A stretch of DNA of 24,667 nucleotides from a virus. Made by a program: the position numbers and the translations under genes. The notes under the pieces are model-generated. The model worked only from the letters and a program-made list of their open reading frames with translations, was not told the DNA's origin and did not search any database. The DNA is taken from positions 1-24,667 of the IMG/VR virus record IMGVR_UViG_3300042472_000487; one strand, given 5' to 3'. Position 1 is the first letter of the stretch; the number at the start of each line of letters is the position of its first letter. Shown piece by piece: positions 3,875 to 24,667 of the stretch.

Positions 3875-4096
3875 TTAGTCTTCAACTTTCGTAAAGAAGG
3901 ATTTGTTTGGATCATAGTCAGGATGTTTTTCGTAACGAGAAAGCCACTGCTCTTCATCATCTGGCTCAGTTGCTACTGGGGTGGTTGCGCCGTGTGGGTT
4001 GTCTCCACGACCTGCGTTGTACGCACGATGGTGCACCATCTTGGCACGGGCGGCGGCTGGCAGTGTGCCTCGCAATTTTGGGCTAATTTCGTCCAC
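3875..4096 (-). CDS. Hypothetical protein, 73 aa
   Basis: The start is a GTG at 4096 with a GAGG Shine-Dalgarno core about 8 nt upstream, placed over the stop of the SpoVS-like gene. The protein has a basic, His-containing first half (RAKMVHHRAYNAGRGDNPHG) and an acidic second half (EPDDEEQWLSRYEKHPDYDP). I do not recognise it. It is probably co-translated with the SpoVS-like gene just upstream. Confidence 0.68.
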   Translation of the reverse strand: MDEISPKLRGTLPAAARAKMVHHRAYNAGRGDNPHGATTPVATEPDDEEQWLSRYEKHPDYDPNKSFFTKVED

Positions 4097-5786: not shown

Positions 5787-6307
5787 GGGTTGTATCGTGC
5801 TTGTCTACGCTCCTGCGGAGCAATACTGATACGGCGGCTTAGTTCTCGTGACAACACTTGTGCACCACGTTCACAGCGCTCAAACACTGAGTCCACCATC
5901 TTGCGGTACGCACGAGTATTCAAGTGCTCTTCCTGTTGTTCAATAACAGCAGGGTCAACATCTCGGCGGGCTTTAGCCAATGTAACGGTGTCACCTTTAG
6001 CGGTGTCGCTCCATTGACCGATCAAGCACTTAGCCTCAACGATACGACAGTTGTTTGCTTGTCGTTCTTCGCTGATCTCTGCTTCAACTAATTCTGCTTT
6101 GGCATAAGACACCCATGCCATGAACTCTCCGTAGAGAGACATCAGTTCAGCGTCTGATAACTCGTCCAGATACTGGGGTACCTGTGGCATCTCTCCCGCT
6201 GGTCTTGGGGGCATCGTGAACTTCTGATTGAATCTCTCCCTCACTGAGGAGTTGTCCTGTGAAGAGTTTGTCATTGTCATCGGTTCTGGTCGCAGTATTG
6301 TTCGCAT
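5783..6307 (-). CDS. Hypothetical helical protein, 174 aa, overlapping the Cas4-like gene
   Basis: The central part (LSDAELMSLYGEFMAWVSYAKAELVEAEISEERQANN, residues about 50-86) should form long helices or a coiled coil. The rest is Arg/Glu-rich with a basic C-terminus. I recall similar LSDEELMxLY proteins beside Cas4-like genes in actinophages, but no function. I keep the ATG at 6307 because AAGGAAAACGATG before it matches the initiation context of several other genes here. This means the first 54 codons overlap the 3' end of the Cas4-like gene in another frame. Later in-frame ATGs (6280, 6274, 6214) lack such a site. The first 45 residues look disordered. Confidence 0.72.
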   Translation of the reverse strand: MRTILRPEPMTMTNSSQDNSSVRERFNQKFTMPPRPAGEMPQVPQYLDELSDAELMSLYGEFMAWVSYAKAELVEAEISEERQANNCRIVEAKCLIGQWSDTAKGDTVTLAKARRDVDPAVIEQQEEHLNTRAYRKMVDSVFERCERGAQVLSRELSRRISIAPQERRQARYNP

Positions 6308-7175
6308 CGTTTTCCTTCCAGCATGTGTTTTTGAATGGGCATTGCTTACATGTCTTATGTTCTGAATCCGTTACCCACGCTGGGCGCATGGGTGGGACTG
6401 ATGAATCTAGCGCCCGAACTACCGTTTCGCAAGCGCTCAGAATAGGATCAACTAATTCTTGTTGGAACTGAACCACGAACTCTTTTACTTCTTGGGTGGC
6501 TTTCCACTCATAGATAAAGACCATGGTGTCAATGCCTGTGCAGTACATATACAGCATGGCTTGACGGACGTGAGACTGGAATGGCTGGCGGATGCGCTTC
6601 CACATCTCGTCAGGTTTACCTTCAGACTCTTTAAATATGTCGTAACTCTCAAAACGAATTGTGCCAGCGCCAACACTCTTGATCTCAATAAGGAATGGCT
6701 TGTCCTTACCATTATTGACAATACCGTCAGCATGTCCAAGGATATGAAACTGTTCGTTGGTTACAGGTACTTCACGATAGATAGGACCAGGGGTTCCGCA
6801 TGACGGGCACTTTTGTGGACTCAAATCTACCCATTTGTGACTACAAATATCGTTCTTACACTGCCACGTACCGTGGAGAACGCCTGCATCACGAAGCCAC
6901 CCTTGCCACTTGGCATGGATAGCGTGACCTTCTGCAAAGACGTTCAAGCGTTGAAACGCAAACTTCTCGTCTTCTTTCTCGTAGCCCTTGATGGTGTACC
7001 AAGACGAACGAGGGCACCAGTCCTTCTTAGCGATCTCGCTTGGGTGAAGGTGTGCGGTATCTCGTGTGGATGACAAGCGCTCTTTGATTAACTGCGCCTG
7101 CACAATAGGAATGACCTTACCTTTGCTGGTAAGAGCCTTCTTATATTCCTGTAAGTGCCATGGTGTTTCAGTCAT
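6147..7175 (-). CDS. Cas4/RecB-family PD-(D/E)XK exonuclease with Fe-S cluster motif
   Basis: The 342-aa protein has the Cas4/AddB-type arrangement. C54 comes first (KKDWCPRSSW), and C276-x2-C279-x5-C285 stand near the end (TCKQCPFKNTCW); together they could hold a 4Fe-4S cluster. The nuclease core shows EGHAIHAKW (H84 region), D150 in GHADGIV, E164-I-K166 and a Q motif at Q205 (RQAMLYMY). An extra pair of Cys pairs (C106, C111, C123, C126) forms a likely zinc ribbon between C54 and the nuclease core. Phage enzymes of this kind degrade or process DNA ends for recombination. Gene order RecA, resolvase-like, Cas4-like supports that. It is not part of a CRISPR system. The last 53 codons overlap the next gene. 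Confidence 0.85.
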   Translation of the reverse strand: MTETPWHLQEYKKALTSKGKVIPIVQAQLIKERLSSTRDTAHLHPSEIAKKDWCPRSSWYTIKGYEKEDEKFAFQRLNVFAEGHAIHAKWQGWLRDAGVLHGTWQCKNDICSHKWVDLSPQKCPSCGTPGPIYREVPVTNEQFHILGHADGIVNNGKDKPFLIEIKSVGAGTIRFESYDIFKESEGKPDEMWKRIRQPFQSHVRQAMLYMYCTGIDTMVFIYEWKATQEVKEFVVQFQQELVDPILSACETVVRALDSSVPPMRPAWVTDSEHKTCKQCPFKNTCWKENDANNTATRTDDNDKLFTGQLLSEGEIQSEVHDAPKTSGRDATGTPVSGRVIRR

Positions 7176-7503
7176 CGTTTATTCCGCTCATCTCTAGAAA
7201 GTCGTCTTCAGTTAACACTACATACCTACGGTTGTTAAGGTCAAATTGCAGTACAGGAAGACGATCTTCCAATATGGCACGTTCAACTAACTCTGACAGG
7301 TCTTTGTGTTTAATAGTTATTTGTTTGGTATTGGTGGTGAACTTGTTTTCAATCAAGATATCGGCAGTGCGTACGTCATTCTTACGCAACCATCCTGAGC
7401 CTGAGCCAGCGTTCCGACTTCCTTTGTAGGACTTAGCACTTCGCTGTTCCTGTTTCTTGGATGTCTTATTAATGGCTCTGCGGTCATCACCACCAAGGAT
7501 CAT
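7168..7503 (-). CDS. PD-(D/E)XK endonuclease, putative Holliday junction resolvase
   Basis: A 111-aa protein with a basic, Ser/Lys-rich head (residues 1-30), then GSGSGWLRKNDVRTADILIENKF. D48 and E52-x-K54 fit the PD-(D/E)XK core (D43 is an alternative first acid), and the following beta-helix-beta part (ITIKHKDLSELVERAI, LPVLQFDL, RYVVLTEDD) matches the resolvase-like fold. Similar actinophage proteins are annotated as Holliday junction resolvases or endonucleases. It is coupled to recA by ATGA and overlaps the Cas4-like gene by 8 nt. Why one phage needs this and the Hjc-like enzyme at 4434-4799 is not clear; one may act on replication intermediates and the other before packaging. Confidence 0.7.
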   Translation of the reverse strand: MILGGDDRRAINKTSKKQEQRSAKSYKGSRNAGSGSGWLRKNDVRTADILIENKFTTNTKQITIKHKDLSELVERAILEDRLPVLQFDLNNRRYVVLTEDDFLEMSGINDD

Positions 7504-8516
7504 TCAAGACCAAACTTTGCAAACACTTCTTTAGTGATCTTGTCACGCAGGTCAATGTCTTCACGAACTGCTTGGAGCACTCCGTCCTTGCCCTGCCACT
7601 TCTGATCTCCATAGGAGTAGTAAGCACCTGCACGAGTAACCAACTCATATGCAATTGCAATGTTGACAACATCTTTTACAGTGTCGTACTCACCACGAGT
7701 GAAGCCAGTGGTGTCTGCAAAGTAGTAGTCAACTACAGCAACTTGCTGTGGTCGGTACGTCTTGTTCTTCATGGTACGAGCCTTGATGGTTTGACCAACA
7801 GTCTCGTCCTTGGCTTTAATCCATTCGTCACGCTTTACTTCAACACGGCAGAAGTAGTGGAAGTTCTTAGCCTTACCACCTGGGGTAGTGCGGTTGTCTC
7901 CCCACATCACACCGATCTTTTCACGCCACTGGTTGATCATGATGCCTGTGCACTGGCGCTCGTCATGAATCAGTGAGCGCTTCTGTGACTTGGATGACTT
8001 GCGGAAGAATTTACCTGTGAGGCGAGCACCAAGACCTACGGTGAACTCTTCCATCATCTTTTCTGATTCGTCACTAGGTACGAGGGCAGGGAGTGAGTCA
8101 ATCACGATCATGTCAACGGCACGGTTGTCTAGTGCCTTGATGACAAGGTCATAAACCTGTTCCATGATGTTGGACTCAACGACCCACAAACGGTCAAGGT
8201 CTACGCCAATGCTCTTGGCATAATCAGGTACGTACTCTTCAGCCGCAATCCATAGCGCTGTAAAGTCTGGGTCAAGTGCTTGGTTAGCCGCAATTGTCTT
8301 GTACGCAAGTGCAGTCTTACCCGATGACTCTTCACCAATGATTTCGCTCCACTGGTTAGCGGGCCAACCGCCACCAAGCATGAGGTCATAGGCAAGAATG
8401 CCCGTGGTGATGCGGGGCATCAACTCACGAACTGAACTGCCTTTAACGAGCGTGCCGTCTCCGTACTTCTTGTTCATCGCATTGATGATTGAATTGAGTG
8501 ATTCGTAGTCAGTCAT
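7500..8516 (-). CDS. recA: RecA-like recombinase
   Basis: The 338-residue protein is a full-length RecA core. Walker A is GEESSGKT (61-68), the catalytic Glu is in IAAEEY (about 93), and Walker B is MIVID (136-140). Loop 2 and its flanks read NQWREKIGVMWGDNRTTPGG (195-214), close to the bacterial NQIRxKIGVMFGxPETTxGG. It binds single-stranded DNA, pairs homologous strands and supports phage recombination or replication restart. The C-terminal domain is diverged and lacks the acidic tail of cellular RecA. It is flanked by the Zn-ribbon protein upstream and by nucleases downstream, with ATGA coupling to the next gene. Confidence 0.95.
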   Translation of the reverse strand: MTDYESLNSIINAMNKKYGDGTLVKGSSVRELMPRITTGILAYDLMLGGGWPANQWSEIIGEESSGKTALAYKTIAANQALDPDFTALWIAAEEYVPDYAKSIGVDLDRLWVVESNIMEQVYDLVIKALDNRAVDMIVIDSLPALVPSDESEKMMEEFTVGLGARLTGKFFRKSSKSQKRSLIHDERQCTGIMINQWREKIGVMWGDNRTTPGGKAKNFHYFCRVEVKRDEWIKAKDETVGQTIKARTMKNKTYRPQQVAVVDYYFADTTGFTRGEYDTVKDVVNIAIAYELVTRAGAYYSYGDQKWQGKDGVLQAVREDIDLRDKITKEVFAKFGLE

Positions 8517-18029: not shown

Positions 18030-18429
18030 ATTCTTCGGTAAGTCTTGGGTCAATTGAGATTGAGGTCGGCTGATCGTCTTCTTTGACATAATTCTCCTTT
18101 GCGTATTTATCTAAGTTCGCTAGAAAGGCTCTCCACGGTGCCACCTCCACTGGTAACGGTCTCCGTGTTATTTCTTTTACGAACGCCATGATCATGGCAC
18201 GAATCTGATCGGTTGTAAAGCCCTTGTCGGTAAGTTTCTTGAAACCCTTCATCAGGGCAGGACCATTCACTGGGGAGGTGATCCTGTCCATGGTCTCGGT
18301 CGGGAGGCTGGCTCGGAAGAAGTACACCAAGTTCCCACGGGAGTCTTGGCGGGTCTGTTTTGGGGCGGGTTCTTTTTTGTCAGGGTCTTCACCTAAGCCG
18401 ACGCCCCAGTCGTCAGAAAGTTTCTTCAT
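18028..18429 (-). CDS. Hypothetical replication protein, 133 aa
   Basis: The protein has a polar, Lys/Asp-rich head (about 1-35) and then a compact helical region. This includes GFTTDQIRAMIMAFVKEITRRPLP and EVAPWRAFLANLDKYAKENY, which looks like a small protein-interaction domain. I do not recognise a family. It lies directly after the initiator gene, the place held by the helicase-loading partner in lambda-like phages, and just before the DnaC-like gene, so it may bridge initiator and loader. The ATG at 18429 is chosen because GAGG lies 8 nt upstream; the in-frame TTG at 18435 is less likely. It overlaps the initiator gene by 17 nt. Confidence 0.7.
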   Translation of the reverse strand: MKKLSDDWGVGLGEDPDKKEPAPKQTRQDSRGNLVYFFRASLPTETMDRITSPVNGPALMKGFKKLTDKGFTTDQIRAMIMAFVKEITRRPLPVEVAPWRAFLANLDKYAKENYVKEDDQPTSISIDPRLTEE

Positions 18430-18898
18430 CTTCAAGCCTCTGATCTACTTGTATTGAAATTTTCCCTTTCTTGTTATTTTTACTCTTGTTATATACTCTT
18501 GATTGGGTGTCACCCGTGACACTACTAGTGGTGTCTCCCGTGACACTACCTAGTGTCTCCATGGACACTACTAGGGGTGACTCGTGTGACACTACTGGGT
18601 TGTTAAAATTGACGTAATAGCGATTCGTCAAGTTCTTGTTACTGCGGGTCACACGGTGCTGTTTGACAATCAGACCGATCTCTTCTAGGCGCTTCATAGA
18701 GCGAATTACGGTTCGGCGGTCACAGCCCAACTGGTCAGCAATGTGCTGGTAGGAGGTTGTCAGTTCCTGCGTTTCTGGGTGCAGGTACTGGAGCATGTGG
18801 TTCAGTACTGCGTGTGAGATGTAGTCCGTAGAGATGTACGGAAGGACCCACCTTGGGACTGGTAAAAAAGGTCCACTCAACTTGTTGTTTCGTGCCAT
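18413..18898 (-). CDS. Winged-helix replication initiator with the origin inside its gene
   Basis: The N-terminal 100 residues form a winged HTH (FLPVPRWVLPYIS, helix ELTTSYQHIADQLGCDRRTVIRSMKRLEEIGLI, wing NLTNRYYVNF). The pattern matches initiators of the lambda O / DnaD-N type. The next part is encoded by four palindromic iterons (18507-18592) and has low complexity (SVTGDTTSSVTGDT). A short basic tail ends it. This is the same plan as lambda O, where the gene for the initiator carries its own origin. The ATG at 18898 has GAGGAG 4-6 nt upstream; an ATG at 18931 would add 11 residues but lacks an RBS. It is the first gene of the replication operon. Confidence 0.8.
   Translation of the reverse strand: MARNNKLSGPFLPVPRWVLPYISTDYISHAVLNHMLQYLHPETQELTTSYQHIADQLGCDRRTVIRSMKRLEEIGLIVKQHRVTRSNKNLTNRYYVNFNNPVVSHESPLVVSMETLGSVTGDTTSSVTGDTQSRVYNKSKNNKKGKISIQVDQRLEDEETF
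18451..18505. other. AT-rich element next to the iterons, probable DNA unwinding element
   Basis: This 55-bp stretch is much richer in A+T than its surroundings. It holds three spaced copies of TCTTG(A/T)T (starting at 18469, 18484 and 18497), the first two within TCTTGTTAT, about 13-15 bp apart. This recalls the 13-mers of oriC and the AT-rich flank of lambda ori. It lies at one end of the iterons only. Confidence 0.6.
18507..18592. repeat. Four palindromic iterons, probable replication origin
   Basis: A 16-bp palindrome, GTGTCACCCGTGACAC, stands at 18507-18522. Related copies are at 18531-18546 (one change), 18553-18568 and 18577-18592 (more diverged). They repeat every 24, 22 and 24 bp and are joined by TACTAG-like linkers. 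The 22-bp step changes the reading frame of the host gene, so selection for the DNA rather than the peptide is likely. The layout (four inverted-repeat iterons inside an initiator gene, AT-rich flank) matches lambda ori. Confidence 0.75.
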
Positions 18899-18948
18899 AT
18901 TGCTCCTCAGGTTGTTATCTAGGGTCGCCATGCTACACTCTCGCTAGT

Positions 18949-18982
18949 CACTTTGGCACTTCCCTGATCGGGTGCTAAAGTG
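18949..18982. promoter_or_regulatory. Near-perfect palindrome over the rightward promoter, operator candidate
   Basis: CACTTTGGCAC (18949-18959) and GTGCTAAAGTG (18972-18982) are inverted repeats matching at 10 of 11 positions, with a 12-bp centre. The arms contain the -35 and -10 of the rightward promoter. Read on the minus strand, the same arms give TTAGCA, 17 bp, CAAAGT, a weaker promoter-like pair facing the replication operon. A dimeric repressor or activator could control both directions. Confidence 0.65.
18953..18981 (+). promoter_or_regulatory. Rightward sigma70-type promoter
   Basis: TTGGCA (18953-18958, 5 of 6 to consensus) and TAAAGT (18976-18981, 4 of 6) are separated by exactly 17 bp. 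Transcription would begin near 18988, a few bases before the folded RNA at 18992, and read into the two small rightward genes. Confidence 0.6.
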
Positions 18983-18991
18983 TGCAATAGT

Positions 18992-19082
18992 GTTGAGGGG
19001 AGGGCGACCTCCTCAGGAACTACAGAGCAAGGGTATTTCCCTCCTTTCTTCCCTTGCCCTTGTTAACGGCCCTCCCTTCAAC
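18992..19082 (+). ncRNA. Strongly folded leader or small RNA with anti-Shine-Dalgarno loops
   Basis: The ends GTTGAGGGGAGGGC (18992-19005) and GCCCTCCCTTCAAC (19069-19082) pair over 14 positions with one G-U pair. Inside, GCAAGGG (19027-19033) and CCCTTGC (19051-19057) form a 7-bp hairpin with a 17-nt pyrimidine loop. That loop contains CCTCCTTTCT (19040-19049), which equals the usual 3' end of 16S rRNA in many Actinobacteria and Firmicutes. A second anti-SD-like run, ACCTCCTC, is at 19007-19014, just inside the closing stem. It lies just behind the promoter and ends 15 nt before the ATG at 19098. No T-run follows, so it is probably a leader or a processed RNA. Confidence 0.5.
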
Positions 19083-19097
19083 CGCTAAACTTGTTTG

Positions 19098-20361: not shown

Positions 20362-20619
20362 CTATTTTAGTGATTTGCGTTGTGCCATGTCTCCCACAAG
20401 CGTAATCATTCGGAGTACACCGTGGCAGGCGCCTGCCAGTGTAGCGACTACAAGACCCGATGTCCATATGTCCTGAACATTTAAAATAAAAGATGCACCA
20501 TAGCCAAAGACAATTCCTGCAAGGATCTTCACCCAAGGCATTGCTTCCCGTGGCGTTAATATGTTGAGTAGTTGAACCAATTTGTAAACGGCTAAACCTG
20601 CCACGAGATATGTCATCAT
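20362..20619 (-). CDS. Small membrane protein, 85 aa, holin candidate
   Basis: The protein has three hydrophobic stretches (TYLVAGLAVYKLVQLL, VKILAGIVFGYGASFIL, IWTSGLVVATLAGAC) and a basic C-terminus (AQRKSLK). Three short membrane spans and position after the tail genes would fit a holin, but no endolysin lies in this window, so other membrane roles are equally possible. The ATG at 20619 overlaps the tail gene's TGA (ATGA) and has AGGA 5 nt upstream; the longer in-frame start at 20637 is less likely. Confidence 0.72.
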   Translation of the reverse strand: MMTYLVAGLAVYKLVQLLNILTPREAMPWVKILAGIVFGYGASFILNVQDIWTSGLVVATLAGACHGVLRMITLVGDMAQRKSLK

Positions 20620-23600
20620 GTCTTTCCTGGAATCCAATCAAACTGCATAAGGTACTTAGCGTTTCCGCCTGAGGTACCCATTAGCGTAACAGGTAAGATC
20701 TTTGGCATCAAACGTGACAAAGCGTCTTGAGTCTTCTTTCGGTTCGTTGTGTACAGCGAGTACGAGGCGTACTTAGTCCCAGACCATGTGTGGTCAGAAG
20801 TAAAGCCTTGATAAAGGAATCCGCTGAATACGGTGTCACCATCAAAGAACTGCCCAGCACCGTTAGGCTCAACCATCCATTTAGACAAAGTAATTGATTG
20901 TCCTGCGCTGAGGCTCAATAGGAATGCGGGGTACTTGGTTCCCGAAGTGGTTGCGTTCATTTGGTAGGTGTACCTACCATCAACACCTACAGAGATAGAG
21001 TCAGCGGCTGTGGCGTCTGTCCAGTCTGTCCAAGTTGAACTGGTTCCCCATGACCCACCATAAACAACTTGTGGGAGGGCAGAGAAGTCAGCAGAAATAT
21101 AATATGCATTGTTTGCTGACACAGGTACGGCTACGTTAGAAACAACCGCAATCTTGTTGCCCGAAGCACCAGCCGTAATTTGAATACCTTCTGCTGGTGC
21201 CGTACTAATGGTTGGAAGAAGATTGGTGGTGTACCAAGATGTTGTAGAAGTGCTGGCGTTAGCGGTTCCATTCCATGCTTGGGTATTTAGAGTAAATCCA
21301 TTGTAATCTTGGTTGGTAGATGTTCCATCAAAGTATGAACGAAGTGCTGAACCTGCTTCAACTAGAACAGCATCCAATTGCCAAGTATCTCCGACAGTAC
21401 CAGTACCTAAACCATAAACACTTACTAAAGCATGCACGGCTCCAACTGGTGCAGTTCCCGTAACACTTATACGTTGTGAACTGGTCGTAAGGGTGCTGTT
21501 AGTAGTACTAGTACTTATACCAGTTCCTGCTGCGTTATACCAGTTAATTCCTATTTGTACTTGACGTAACGTTCCAGAAATTGACTTAACATAACCACTC
21601 GCTGTGTATGCTTGTCCTTCAGTAACTGGGAATGAGGCAAAATCAGAAAAGGTACCAGATAACCCTGTGCCAGTAGCGACTATTTGGTATGCCCAAGAAC
21701 CTGAACCCCACGTTCCAGCAACTCTAGTGTTAGTTGATCCGTTAGCATTCCAACCTGTCGTATTTGTTTCAAAACTAGGGTTTGGTAATAAGTTCTGACG
21801 TTTTGCAGTAAACGCTCCATCAAAGTATGGAAGTAGTACAGAACCTGTTTCTAACAGAATTCCATCTACTAATGCTGTTTCTGCTGTTTCTGTGTTAGCA
21901 CTATCAGAAGTAACTATATAAAGATTCGCTGTTGAACCATTAGGCGCTGTCCCAGTTACGGATATACGAAGCCAGTTGTTCATACCTATAGGAACTGAAA
22001 TAATGTTACTGGTTGAAAAAGTACCACCACCCCAACCTATTTGTGCATACATATTACGGGTAGCACCAGCAATGTTCTTTACATAAAAACTAAACGTATA
22101 TGAAGTTCCACTAACGGGAGTAAACGTTGTTGATGCGCCAGCAGACCCAGTACTTGGATCTGTAATTAACATTGAAGCAGTTCCAATAAAAGCACTTGCT
22201 GTACTTCTAGATAATGTGGCACTACCAAGACCAGCCCAACCTGTGGTATCTACTTCAAAGTTTGGATTAGTGATTAGGTTTGTACGGGTATTGCCAGTAA
22301 ACCAAGAAGCCGTAGAAGTAGAGGCGTTAACCGTTCCAGACCACCCCTTACTTATGATTCCGTATCCTTGGTAATCATTAACATATGTTCCATCAAAGTA
22401 TGGGAGAACAGATGCAGATTGTTCAATCATAACTGAATCAAGTTGTGCCGTGTCACCGATAGCACCAGCACTTGCGTTGAAAGTGATAGTTGCGCTCACT
22501 GCACCTGCTGGCGCAACACCAGTTGCAGATAATATTGTTGCAGTCGCACAAGTTTGCGAAGTTCCGCTTGATGAACTCACATATCCTGCACTGTTGTACC
22601 AGTCAATCACAATCGCATAAGTCCTAGAGCCAACTGTCCTGAGCACCGTTCCAGTAACAGTGTAAGACTGATTTGGTATCGGTATGAAAGTTCTGTTTGC
22701 GCCACCAGTCAATGTTGATGTTGCAACAAACTGCCCAACCCATGATCCTGTGCCGAATGTTCCAGCAACACGGCTGATAGTAGAACGAAACGCACCCCAA
22801 GTTGCTGTATCAATTTCAAATGATGGGTTAGTCACAAGGTTGGTGCGTGTAACCGCAGGTTGTTGCGCCACGTTCCATGACACACCTGAATTAGTAAGGA
22901 ACCGTGGGTCAGCCACAAGGTTGGCACGTTGTGCGTGAACATTGAAGGTATAGAACGGAGCAGAAGCGCCTGTAGTTATCGTTACGTCAGAACCGCTAAC
23001 TGCGGTGATGTAGTCACGAACTGAGTCAAGGGTTCCTTTAGTACGGCGTAGGTATCCAATGTCATGGAGCAACGCACGGGTACGGGACACACCAATGTCA
23101 TTGACATTAAGTTCCAATCCAAGCATGCTTGCAAGTTGTTCAATACCTTCTGCTTCTGCAAGTAGAGGGTCATGCTGGGTCATGATGGAATCAATAAGAG
23201 TACGACTACGGTCTAGTTCAAATCCAAAAGTATCAATAAAACGCTCTAATTGAGTGTTGCCTCTATCAGCGTCACGATAATACTTAGGTACACGTTTCCA
23301 CATAGCATCTTTGGATCCGTAATCTTTTGGTACAAGTATTTCAATTGAAGCAAGTCGTTCATAGAAATATGAATTGCTGTCTTTAACGTAGTAGTAAGCA
23401 AACAAAGTGTAATAAGCCCATTTACCACTTACTGGCTTTTGTATTGCTAGTGGGCCAGCGTCAGTGGTAATTGTTATTGTCTCTTGGTGTAAGTATGTGT
23501 CAACTACACCACTGAACAACAACTGACCGTCAACAACTGTTTGAGGGAATCCCGAATCTGAATAGACAAGCGCCACGTTAATAAGTCCAGTAGCGCCTGC

Positions 23601-23891
23601 AACAACACTGCTCTCAACTGTAAAGCCATCAGTTAAAGACCAGTTTAAAACAACAGCGTTGTACTCAATTGCTTGTGCTTCAAATACATATTCATTTTCA
23701 TCAACGGCGGTAGTAGTTACACTTGATGGAAGTGTTGTGACTATTCCAGTAGATCGGATAGCGGCGTCAACGTCAGTTACGCTTGCACCAGCAGTTATCT
23801 GTAGGGCATCAGTACCACGAATAAATGAACCGACACCAGTTACGTCACCAGCACCTGTATACCGCCTGAGTCTGAACGATTCTCTTGCCAT
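20616..23891 (-). CDS. Large tail protein: gpI-like region plus carbohydrate-binding-like repeats
   Basis: The 1091-aa protein has an N-terminal beta-rich part (about 1-190). A helical part (about 195-300: MWKRVPKYYRDADRG, QLERFIDTFGFELDRSRTLIDSI, GIEQLASMLGLELN, RRTKGTLDSVRDYI) resembles tail protein I (P2 gpI) and joins the baseplate. From about 347 come repeated modules beginning TNLVTNPSFE, TNLITNPNFE or QNLLPNPSFE, with Trp/Gly/Ser-rich strands, and ending YFDG (about 347-532, 535-692, 697-889). A diverged fourth module runs at 889-1049. The fold is likely like the CBM4/9 jelly roll that binds sugars. It probably recognises host cell-wall polysaccharide. RBS GGAG lies 7 nt before the ATG. 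Confidence 0.85.
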   Translation of the reverse strand: MARESFRLRRYTGAGDVTGVGSFIRGTDALQITAGASVTDVDAAIRSTGIVTTLPSSVTTTAVDENEYVFEAQAIEYNAVVLNWSLTDGFTVESSVVAGATGLINVALVYSDSGFPQTVVDGQLLFSGVVDTYLHQETITITTDAGPLAIQKPVSGKWAYYTLFAYYYVKDSNSYFYERLASIEILVPKDYGSKDAMWKRVPKYYRDADRGNTQLERFIDTFGFELDRSRTLIDSIMTQHDPLLAEAEGIEQLASMLGLELNVNDIGVSRTRALLHDIGYLRRTKGTLDSVRDYITAVSGSDVTITTGASAPFYTFNVHAQRANLVADPRFLTNSGVSWNVAQQPAVTRTNLVTNPSFEIDTATWGAFRSTISRVAGTFGTGSWVGQFVATSTLTGGANRTFIPIPNQSYTVTGTVLRTVGSRTYAIVIDWYNSAGYVSSSSGTSQTCATATILSATGVAPAGAVSATITFNASAGAIGDTAQLDSVMIEQSASVLPYFDGTYVNDYQGYGIISKGWSGTVNASTSTASWFTGNTRTNLITNPNFEVDTTGWAGLGSATLSRSTASAFIGTASMLITDPSTGSAGASTTFTPVSGTSYTFSFYVKNIAGATRNMYAQIGWGGGTFSTSNIISVPIGMNNWLRISVTGTAPNGSTANLYIVTSDSANTETAETALVDGILLETGSVLLPYFDGAFTAKRQNLLPNPSFETNTTGWNANGSTNTRVAGTWGSGSWAYQIVATGTGLSGTFSDFASFPVTEGQAYTASGYVKSISGTLRQVQIGINWYNAAGTGISTSTTNSTLTTSSQRISVTGTAPVGAVHALVSVYGLGTGTVGDTWQLDAVLVEAGSALRSYFDGTSTNQDYNGFTLNTQAWNGTANASTSTTSWYTTNLLPTISTAPAEGIQITAGASGNKIAVVSNVAVPVSANNAYYISADFSALPQVVYGGSWGTSSTWTDWTDATAADSISVGVDGRYTYQMNATTSGTKYPAFLLSLSAGQSITLSKWMVEPNGAGQFFDGDTVFSGFLYQGFTSDHTWSGTKYASYSLYTTNRKKTQDALSRLMPKILPVTLMGTSGGNAKYLMQFDWIPGKT

Positions 23892-23893
23892 TG

Positions 23894-24667
23894 TTAGGCT
23901 CCAGCCACAATTCCGCCACTAGCCACCATTGTGTAGGTAGACGATGTAGCAAGTGCTAATAAAGATGTAGACGATGCTTGTACTCCAGTGAACCCACCAC
24001 TGCTGTCAATCACGTTGTTGACAGTCGTTGTAAATCGTGTGATTACTGCGTAGTCAACTCCGTTAACGTCAAGTATTGCTCGGTAAAGATCTCCCAAAGA
24101 AACCTTTCCTGCAAAGTCCATATTCTCAAATGAGAAGAGGTCTTGAATAGAGGTAAGGACGTTTGCAGAAACTGTTTGCTGTACAAAACCATCTTGTACT
24201 CGTATTGTCCCAACAATGTTTACTGGTGTGACAGTTACTGATGCCCCTACGTTTGATGTCACATAAGTGATTTCACGAGTAGACAAATAACTTTGTATTG
24301 TAGAAATGGTAGTTGCGTCTAGCACTAATGTGTTCGTAGACCCATAATTTGATTGAGGAGTGACTGCTCGTATTTGAACCACGTTACTTCCGTCAACATA
24401 TGCTGTTGCTTTTGTAATTCCTGGAATACGTAACAAGATATCTTCGTAGTCCTGTAGAGATACAGCACGGTCTTGAGTTCTAAACGATAGAGGAATATTT
24501 GTCTTCAATGAACTAATTGATTCAATATCCACACCTCCAGCAGCCCTAATAGTATTAGGGGTTATCTGAATACCATCTAGTGGTGGCTTATTGACAACAG
24601 TGGTGCTTTCAAGTGCCTTAATGGCGCCCACTAAAACGTTTCCTGCTGAACCACGACTACGTCGGTA
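23894..24667 (-). CDS. Baseplate J-like protein, N-terminus outside the window
   Basis: The frame stays open to the right edge, so the gene starts beyond 24667; the GTG at 24631 is an internal valine codon. Its visible part has the gpJ signature near the start (PLDGIQITPNTIRAAGG, then RAVSLQDYEDILLRIPGITKATAYVDG), followed by a beta-rich C-terminal half. In P2-like phages gpJ forms the baseplate wedge together with gpI, which is encoded next. The gene pair J-I therefore marks a baseplate module. The stop is 2 nt before the tail protein's start. Confidence 0.85.
   Translation of the reverse strand, partial: YRRSRGSAGNVLVGAIKALESTTVVNKPPLDGIQITPNTIRAAGGVDIESISSLKTNIPLSFRTQDRAVSLQDYEDILLRIPGITKATAYVDGSNVVQIRAVTPQSNYGSTNTLVLDATTISTIQSYLSTREITYVTSNVGASVTVTPVNIVGTIRVQDGFVQQTVSANVLTSIQDLFSFENMDFAGKVSLGDLYRAILDVNGVDYAVITRFTTTVNNVIDSSGGFTGVQASSTSLLALATSSTYTMVASGGIVAGA

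Follow-up and report, generated by a model that had tools for sequence, protein, structure and literature searches.

A predicted replication origin of palindromic iterons within the initiator gene of an uncultured group of actinobacteriophages

In this study, we analysed a 24,667-base IMG/VR virus record (IMGVR_UViG_3300042472_000487; the window), whose minus strand carries a replication operon beginning at 18931. The first gene, P1 (18413–18931), encodes a 172-aa initiator made up of a winged helix, a disordered linker encoded by the predicted origin, and a C-terminal tag. It is followed on the same strand by P2 (18028–18429), a 133-aa protein (135 aa from the TTG at 18435) that overlaps P1 and is its proposed recruiting partner; P3 (17288–17959), a DnaC-like AAA+ helicase loader (PHROG 50, E = 1.2e-33); P4 (16848–17288), an operon protein of no assigned function, which is kept in relatives and matched no family in Pfam or PHROG profile searches; P5 (15592–16860), a DnaB-like replicative helicase (DnaB_C, E = 7.4e-30; PHROG 19, E = 1.2e-59); and P6 (14706–15632), a DnaG-type primase with a zinc ribbon and a Toprim domain according to Pfam and PHROG profiles. 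An SNF2-type helicase and a family A DNA polymerase come after P6. The order P1 initiator, P2 (135 aa), DnaC-like protein, P4, DnaB-like helicase and primase is kept in relatives, and this conservation, together with the profile matches, bears out the initial annotation's view that a winged-helix gene opens a replication operon. Elsewhere in the window, a UvsX-like recombinase and a Cas4-type exonuclease are encoded near the replication genes (6147–8516), genes for a minor tail protein and baseplate-wedge-like proteins (20616–24631) suggest a contractile-tailed phage, and the intergenic region upstream of the operon (18932–19094) contains an inverted repeat, GTTGAGGGGAGGGC / GCCCTCCCTTCAAC (18992–19005 and 19069–19082).

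The initiator gene was originally placed at 18413–18898. That start is usable, being the second in-frame methionine (MARNN), at which several relatives begin, but the full open reading frame (ORF) runs to 18931. The best PHROG matches of P1 are 'replication initiation' groups 270, 391 and 8102 (E = 2.6e-14 to 1.7e-11), which include O-like groups (group 391, 4.7e-12), and P1 also matches Pfam HTH_36 (E = 2.2e-7). Phage_rep_O was absent from its 24 Pfam matches at E up to 0.05, and the Pfam search gave no RepA_N profile match. Profiles, AlphaFold and fold comparison all predict a winged-helix DNA-binding domain encoded at 18596–18874 on the minus strand. In the AlphaFold model (22 sequences), P1 is ordered over approximately residues 20–110, and residues 114–159, which are encoded by the palindrome array and the AT-rich stretch described below, have a pLDDT of <50 and are predicted to be disordered. 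Beyond this linker there is only a short tail, without a C-terminal loader-binding domain of its own. The winged helix resembles those of many proteins, the best structural matches including CRP and CodY; the RepA_N initiator domain (4pql/4pt7) reached a Z score of 8.8 over 83 residues (4pql), level with CRP and others. Comparing the DNA of the window with that of cultured phages gave no match, and protein searches returned no more than partial winged-helix matches for P1 and none for P2.

Four imperfect 16-bp palindromes (iterons) lie inside the P1 gene, separated by steps of 24, 22 and 24 bp. In gene order these are copy 1 (18577–18592; GTGTCACACGAGTCAC on the minus strand), copy 2 (18553–18568; GTGTCCATGGAGACAC on the minus strand), which is the most degenerate, copy 3 (18531–18546; GTGTCACGGGAGACAC), which lies 22 bp from copy 2 in the other reading frame, and copy 4 (18507–18522; GTGTCACGGGTGACAC), which adjoins the AT-rich stretch. 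Three copies match GTGWCWCnnGWGWCAC exactly, and the copy at 18553 has two mismatches. The 22-bp step changes the frame, so that the copies are translated as VSHES/VSMET and as SVTGDT. The near-repeat statistic of the P1 gene is 33, compared with a mean of 2 and a maximum of 14 in synonymous-codon permutations (n = 300); it is the highest in the window, where nothing else comes near it. Counting matches to the loose two-mismatch pattern is less discriminating, since four copies were reached in 10 of 100 shuffles; the case for the array rests on clustering, spacing and conservation rather than on that count. Next to copy 4, a 50-bp stretch (18457–18506) is 74% AT, compared with 53% for the P1 gene, and contains three CAAGA/TCTTG repeats (18469–18473, 18484–18488 and 18497–18501) spaced 13 and 15 bp apart; it is the proposed unwinding element. 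In the relatives examined, an AT-rich stretch with CAAGA-type repeats also follows the array, mostly at 58–78% AT. The initial annotation had described the four palindromes with their steps, the two reading frames and the flanking AT-rich block with three TCTTG repeats, and all of these features were recovered.

It had also proposed that the DNA rather than the peptide is conserved, and that the palindromes should persist in relatives while the peptide changes. We gathered relatives from IMG/VR by scans with P1, P2 and P5; the final scan yielded 54 distinct initiator genes, each located ahead of the same helicase gene. Palindromes persisted while the peptide changed in 52 of the 54, each with at least four iteron copies, and in all 52 arrays the copies occupy more than one reading frame. 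The exact 22-bp step is kept in 46 arrays; the other six (L291, L292, L296, L298, L301 and L304) have steps of 30, 23 and 25, and the first step of the array differs between lineages. Three kinds of site were found according to lineage, GTGWCWCnnGWGWCAC, GGGTAGYn6RCTACCC and GTATCn6GATAC (the last in L297). An identical 16-mer is even read in two ways within one gene: GTGTCACCCATGACAC is translated as VSPMT and as GVTHDT in L161, and GTAGCACCCGTGACAC as VAPVT and as SSTRDT in L164. Among ten close relatives, four-fold-degenerate sites differ at 10% in the array codons and at 45% in the winged-helix codons, and synonymous differences amount to 7.7% and 38.1%, respectively, whereas amino acid differences affect 13.6% of the codons in the array and 6.5% of those in the winged-helix part. 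Because four-fold sites differ less and amino acids more than in the winged-helix part, selection acts on the DNA of the array, as had been proposed. The region past the array is constrained too (15% difference at four-fold sites), partly because P2 starts there. Other clustered repeats in the relatives resemble, in the examples judged by eye, low-complexity or in-frame coding repeats rather than palindromic arrays.

The sites and the protein diverge between lineages while the layout stays. GGGTAG-type sites are paired with the recognition stretch YHRTTVI, and GTGWC-type sites with DRRTVI, NKRTVI or SRSTV. This change of site class with the recognition stretch is consistent with binding of the array by P1, although it is no proof. 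The outer positions of the sites are nearly invariant, and the A/T positions vary independently between the two halves; neither paired cells nor covariation between palindrome halves rose above shuffles. With this pattern, each palindrome resembles two half-sites for a dimeric protein.

In seven contigs of 75–97 kb with GTGWC-class sites, the exact consensus occurs only in the initiator gene, and one-mismatch matches are single and scattered. GC and AT skew in seven relatives of 94.5–97.3 kb showed no consistent extreme at the array; GC skew, which singled out the array as an origin in none of the seven, speaks neither for nor against it. Contigs of much the same length carry the array at widely differing positions, in keeping with circular permutation of the genomes. 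The 94.5–97.3-kb contigs behind L006, L009, L017, L021, L112, L173 and L178 each carry two WhiB genes, as does each of the 9 large relatives examined (9/9), in support of the earlier description of the gene as actinophage-type. Because of these genes the hosts are very likely Actinobacteria; a scan of GTDB genomes with P2 gave no relative, so the host is taken from WhiB alone. The phage of the window probably infects aquatic Actinobacteria.

P2 is predicted to have a helical middle (residues 30–114) and disordered ends. Foldseek gave no significant match for its fold; its best VIA-align hits, at a Z score of 6.7, which is under the trusted level, were AAA+ C-terminal helical domains, and G39P gave no sequence match to P2 and was absent among the fold matches listed. 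P1 and P2 share the C-terminal tag [IV]DxRL. In P1 the tag is VDQRL (codons at 18434–18448, minus strand), of which D163, R165 and L166 are invariant in A1, and in P2 it is IDPRL (18040–18054, minus strand). Across the first 14 relatives, both P1 and P2 have an invariant D-x-R-L close to the C-terminus, and the tag is found on both proteins in 35 of 54 loci by a loose pattern. In the seven genomes that are nearly complete, [IVLT]DxRL stands at the C-terminus of P1, P2 and one other small ORF only, and a control motif of reversed order occurs once. The tails also match by locus, as in L165 (YDDLEVDGRLK in P1 with YDDLQVDIRLLPD in P2) and L173 (GKIDPRLMS with GPKIDPRLMSNNE). The mean similarity score of P1 and P2 tails was 32.7 within the same locus and 24.0 between different loci, a difference reached in 0 of 10,000 permutations; the test disregards kinship of the loci, and as these are related, with effective lineages far below 21, the matching reflects fewer independent events than is apparent. 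The P2 tag is lost in L281–L289, where the protein ends in D-V-x-E-W-K, and P1 has no tag in the L291–L304 group. Within the P1 tag codons lies AGAGG (18437–18441, minus strand), which, judged from its sequence, probably serves as ribosome-binding site for P2. It coincides with the R and L codons and leaves the preceding hydrophobic-D pair free. The overlap may add to the conservation of the R-L codons in P1. In the window, the P2 tag comes before a gap of roughly 70 or more bases. At its other end, in a disordered segment, P2 carries a DDWG motif (18403–18414, minus strand); the start DDWG..(L/I)G.D is near-invariant, no other ORF begins in this way in seven genomes, and it is possibly a second docking motif.

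Some relatives depart from this arrangement. L183/L184, a GC-rich relative with the same operon, encodes the winged helix and P2 together in a single 218-residue ORF; this fused gene has no linker, no iterons and no tag. The fusion suggests that P1 and P2 each correspond to one half of an O-type initiator and that, in the window's group, the putative origin sits exactly where the two halves join. Since the fused gene is without iterons, the embedded array belongs to the window's group and not to all relatives. The initial annotation held that relatives keeping the initiator and lacking the palindromes would speak against its reading; such a case was found in part, in the distant L183/L184, and 52 of the 54 genes keep the palindromes. 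The fused ORF (L183:3719–4375) contains an internal in-frame ATG at 3989 after GGAAGGG, from which P2 could also be made alone. The contig of L184 (G011) carries WhiB genes. Some 27 kb away from its fused initiator it also has a tandem set of four palindromes, CGAACATACGTTCG / CGAACACCTGTTCG (L222:8003–8075); these resemble the SOS (LexA) boxes of actinobacteria, or they could form the origin array of that phage. In L295, the initiator ORF (2433–2780; 115 aa) ends just past a single recognisable iteron and P2 lies about 107 bp downstream; the putative origin is broken or relocated in this contig. L263 has an initiator ORF of 96 aa and no iteron copy.

We consider it very probable that the array and the AT-rich stretch are a replication origin embedded in the initiator gene, in the style of lambda O, pSK41 and SPP1. 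By analogy with these three systems, P1 dimers would use the winged helix to occupy the four iterons, the AT-rich side of the array would then melt, and replication would start here. P2 would be the half of the initiator that recruits and, with the DnaC-like P3, would bring the DnaB-like helicase P5 to be loaded onto the melted strands. P1 and P2 may dock on a common partner through the same [IV]DxRL tag, most likely the loader P3 or the helicase P5; this role of the tag is far less certain than the origin itself.

Palindromes within a winged-helix gene might instead be operators, at which P1 would repress or activate operon transcription, with replication starting elsewhere. Winged-helix folds are indeed common among regulators, as the structural matches to CRP and CodY illustrate. 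However, the sites lie about 340 bp into the P1 gene, past any promoter for it, and are followed by AT-rich repeats; moreover, the PHROG matches of P1 are replication initiators and its gene heads a primosome operon. We therefore regard a purely regulatory array as unlikely, although dual use as operator and origin is possible. Clustered palindromes are also known at partition, packaging and recombination sites, and such a site could have come to lie within the gene by chance. This is less probable still, given that the site class varies with the adjacent protein, that the neighbours are replication genes and that the layout is that of the lambda, pSK41 and SPP1 origins.

Two further explanations were rejected. 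Every copy is an inverted repeat and hairpins are used by some plasmid origins, so the palindromes could function by folding into hairpins, in RNA or in single-stranded DNA, and serve for instance as an attenuator, pause or nick site. Yet partner positions vary independently, without compensatory change between the halves, as expected for dimer half-sites and not for a base-paired stem, which makes hairpins very improbable. As the palindromes sit in a coding region, they might also encode a repetitive peptide that is itself selected. Here the frame switching, which yields different peptides from the two frames in a segment predicted to be disordered, and the synonymous constraint, with amino acids of the array differing more and synonymous sites less than elsewhere in the gene, leave next to no likelihood.

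Origins inside initiator genes are already known from lambda, SPP1 and pSK41. Lambda-type origins lie within O and consist of four iterons and an AT tract (PMC7466680). The embedded origin proposed here resembles those of lambda and the Stx phages in its position midway in the initiator gene, in the adjoining AT-rich tract and in the helicase-loading gene that comes next. Lambda and the window phage both have four imperfect inverted repeats, compared with six in Stx phages, although the iteron sequence differs between the two. The O protein of lambda has a C-terminal domain that binds the loader P; P1, in contrast, has just a short terminal tag, and the half that recruits seems to be encoded by the following gene, P2. 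Unlike lambda, the window phage also encodes its own helicase and primase. Because Phage_rep_O is unmatched and the C-terminal domain is missing, we did not class P1 in the lambda O family. In the RepA_N plasmid pSK41, four Rep boxes lie inside rep, and the linker encoded by the origin is dispensable (PMC5703833). The winged-helix N-terminus of its Rep binds the four boxes in its own gene, a layout like that of P1, and the RepA_N plasmid pPR9 has an HTH_36 N-terminus, as does P1; however, the C-terminal part of the pSK41 protein recruits the replisome and binds DnaG primase, and P1 has no such domain. The oriL of SPP1 lies inside gene 38 (PMC6316719). SPP1 (G38P-G39P-G40P) likewise has repeats and an AT-rich unwinding element within the initiator gene, and both phages encode a small helper protein and a DnaB-type helicase. 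The SPP1 sites are direct repeats and there is a second origin, oriR, whereas the sites in the window are palindromes; the window phage has an additional DnaC-like ATPase, and no relation between P2 and G39P was detected. For mycobacteriophage RepA prophages, an origin has been suspected upstream of or within repA, with no repeats found (PMC7157519); these too are actinobacteriophages, but their RepA is plasmid-like and serves prophage maintenance (PMC7157519). In line with the initial annotation, no well-described embedded origin in phages of this kind was found in the open-access papers searched. What appears to be new is that a tag on the initiator replaces the recruiting domain and that P2 ends in the same tag, matched by lineage.

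This points to a further idea, which we offer tentatively, as a possibility rather than an expectation: a split O, in which the DNA-binding and recruiting halves are separate proteins bearing the same interchangeable C-terminal docking peptide. Origin-bound P1 and P2 would then take or exchange the same sites on the ring-shaped loader or helicase. If so, helicase loading would proceed by a peptide-based hand-off, of which we found no description for lambda, SPP1 or pSK41.

In summary, our analysis predicts an origin, with a precise location, for a group of uncultured actinobacteriophages. The approximately 50 natural initiators, with their varied sites and recognition helices, offer a test of initiator–origin coevolution, and an origin that is translated in two frames clearly illustrates how a signal in the DNA can override the sequence of a protein. 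The shared tag provides a simple, testable idea of how the helicase may be brought to the origin by an initiator that lacks a recruiting domain.
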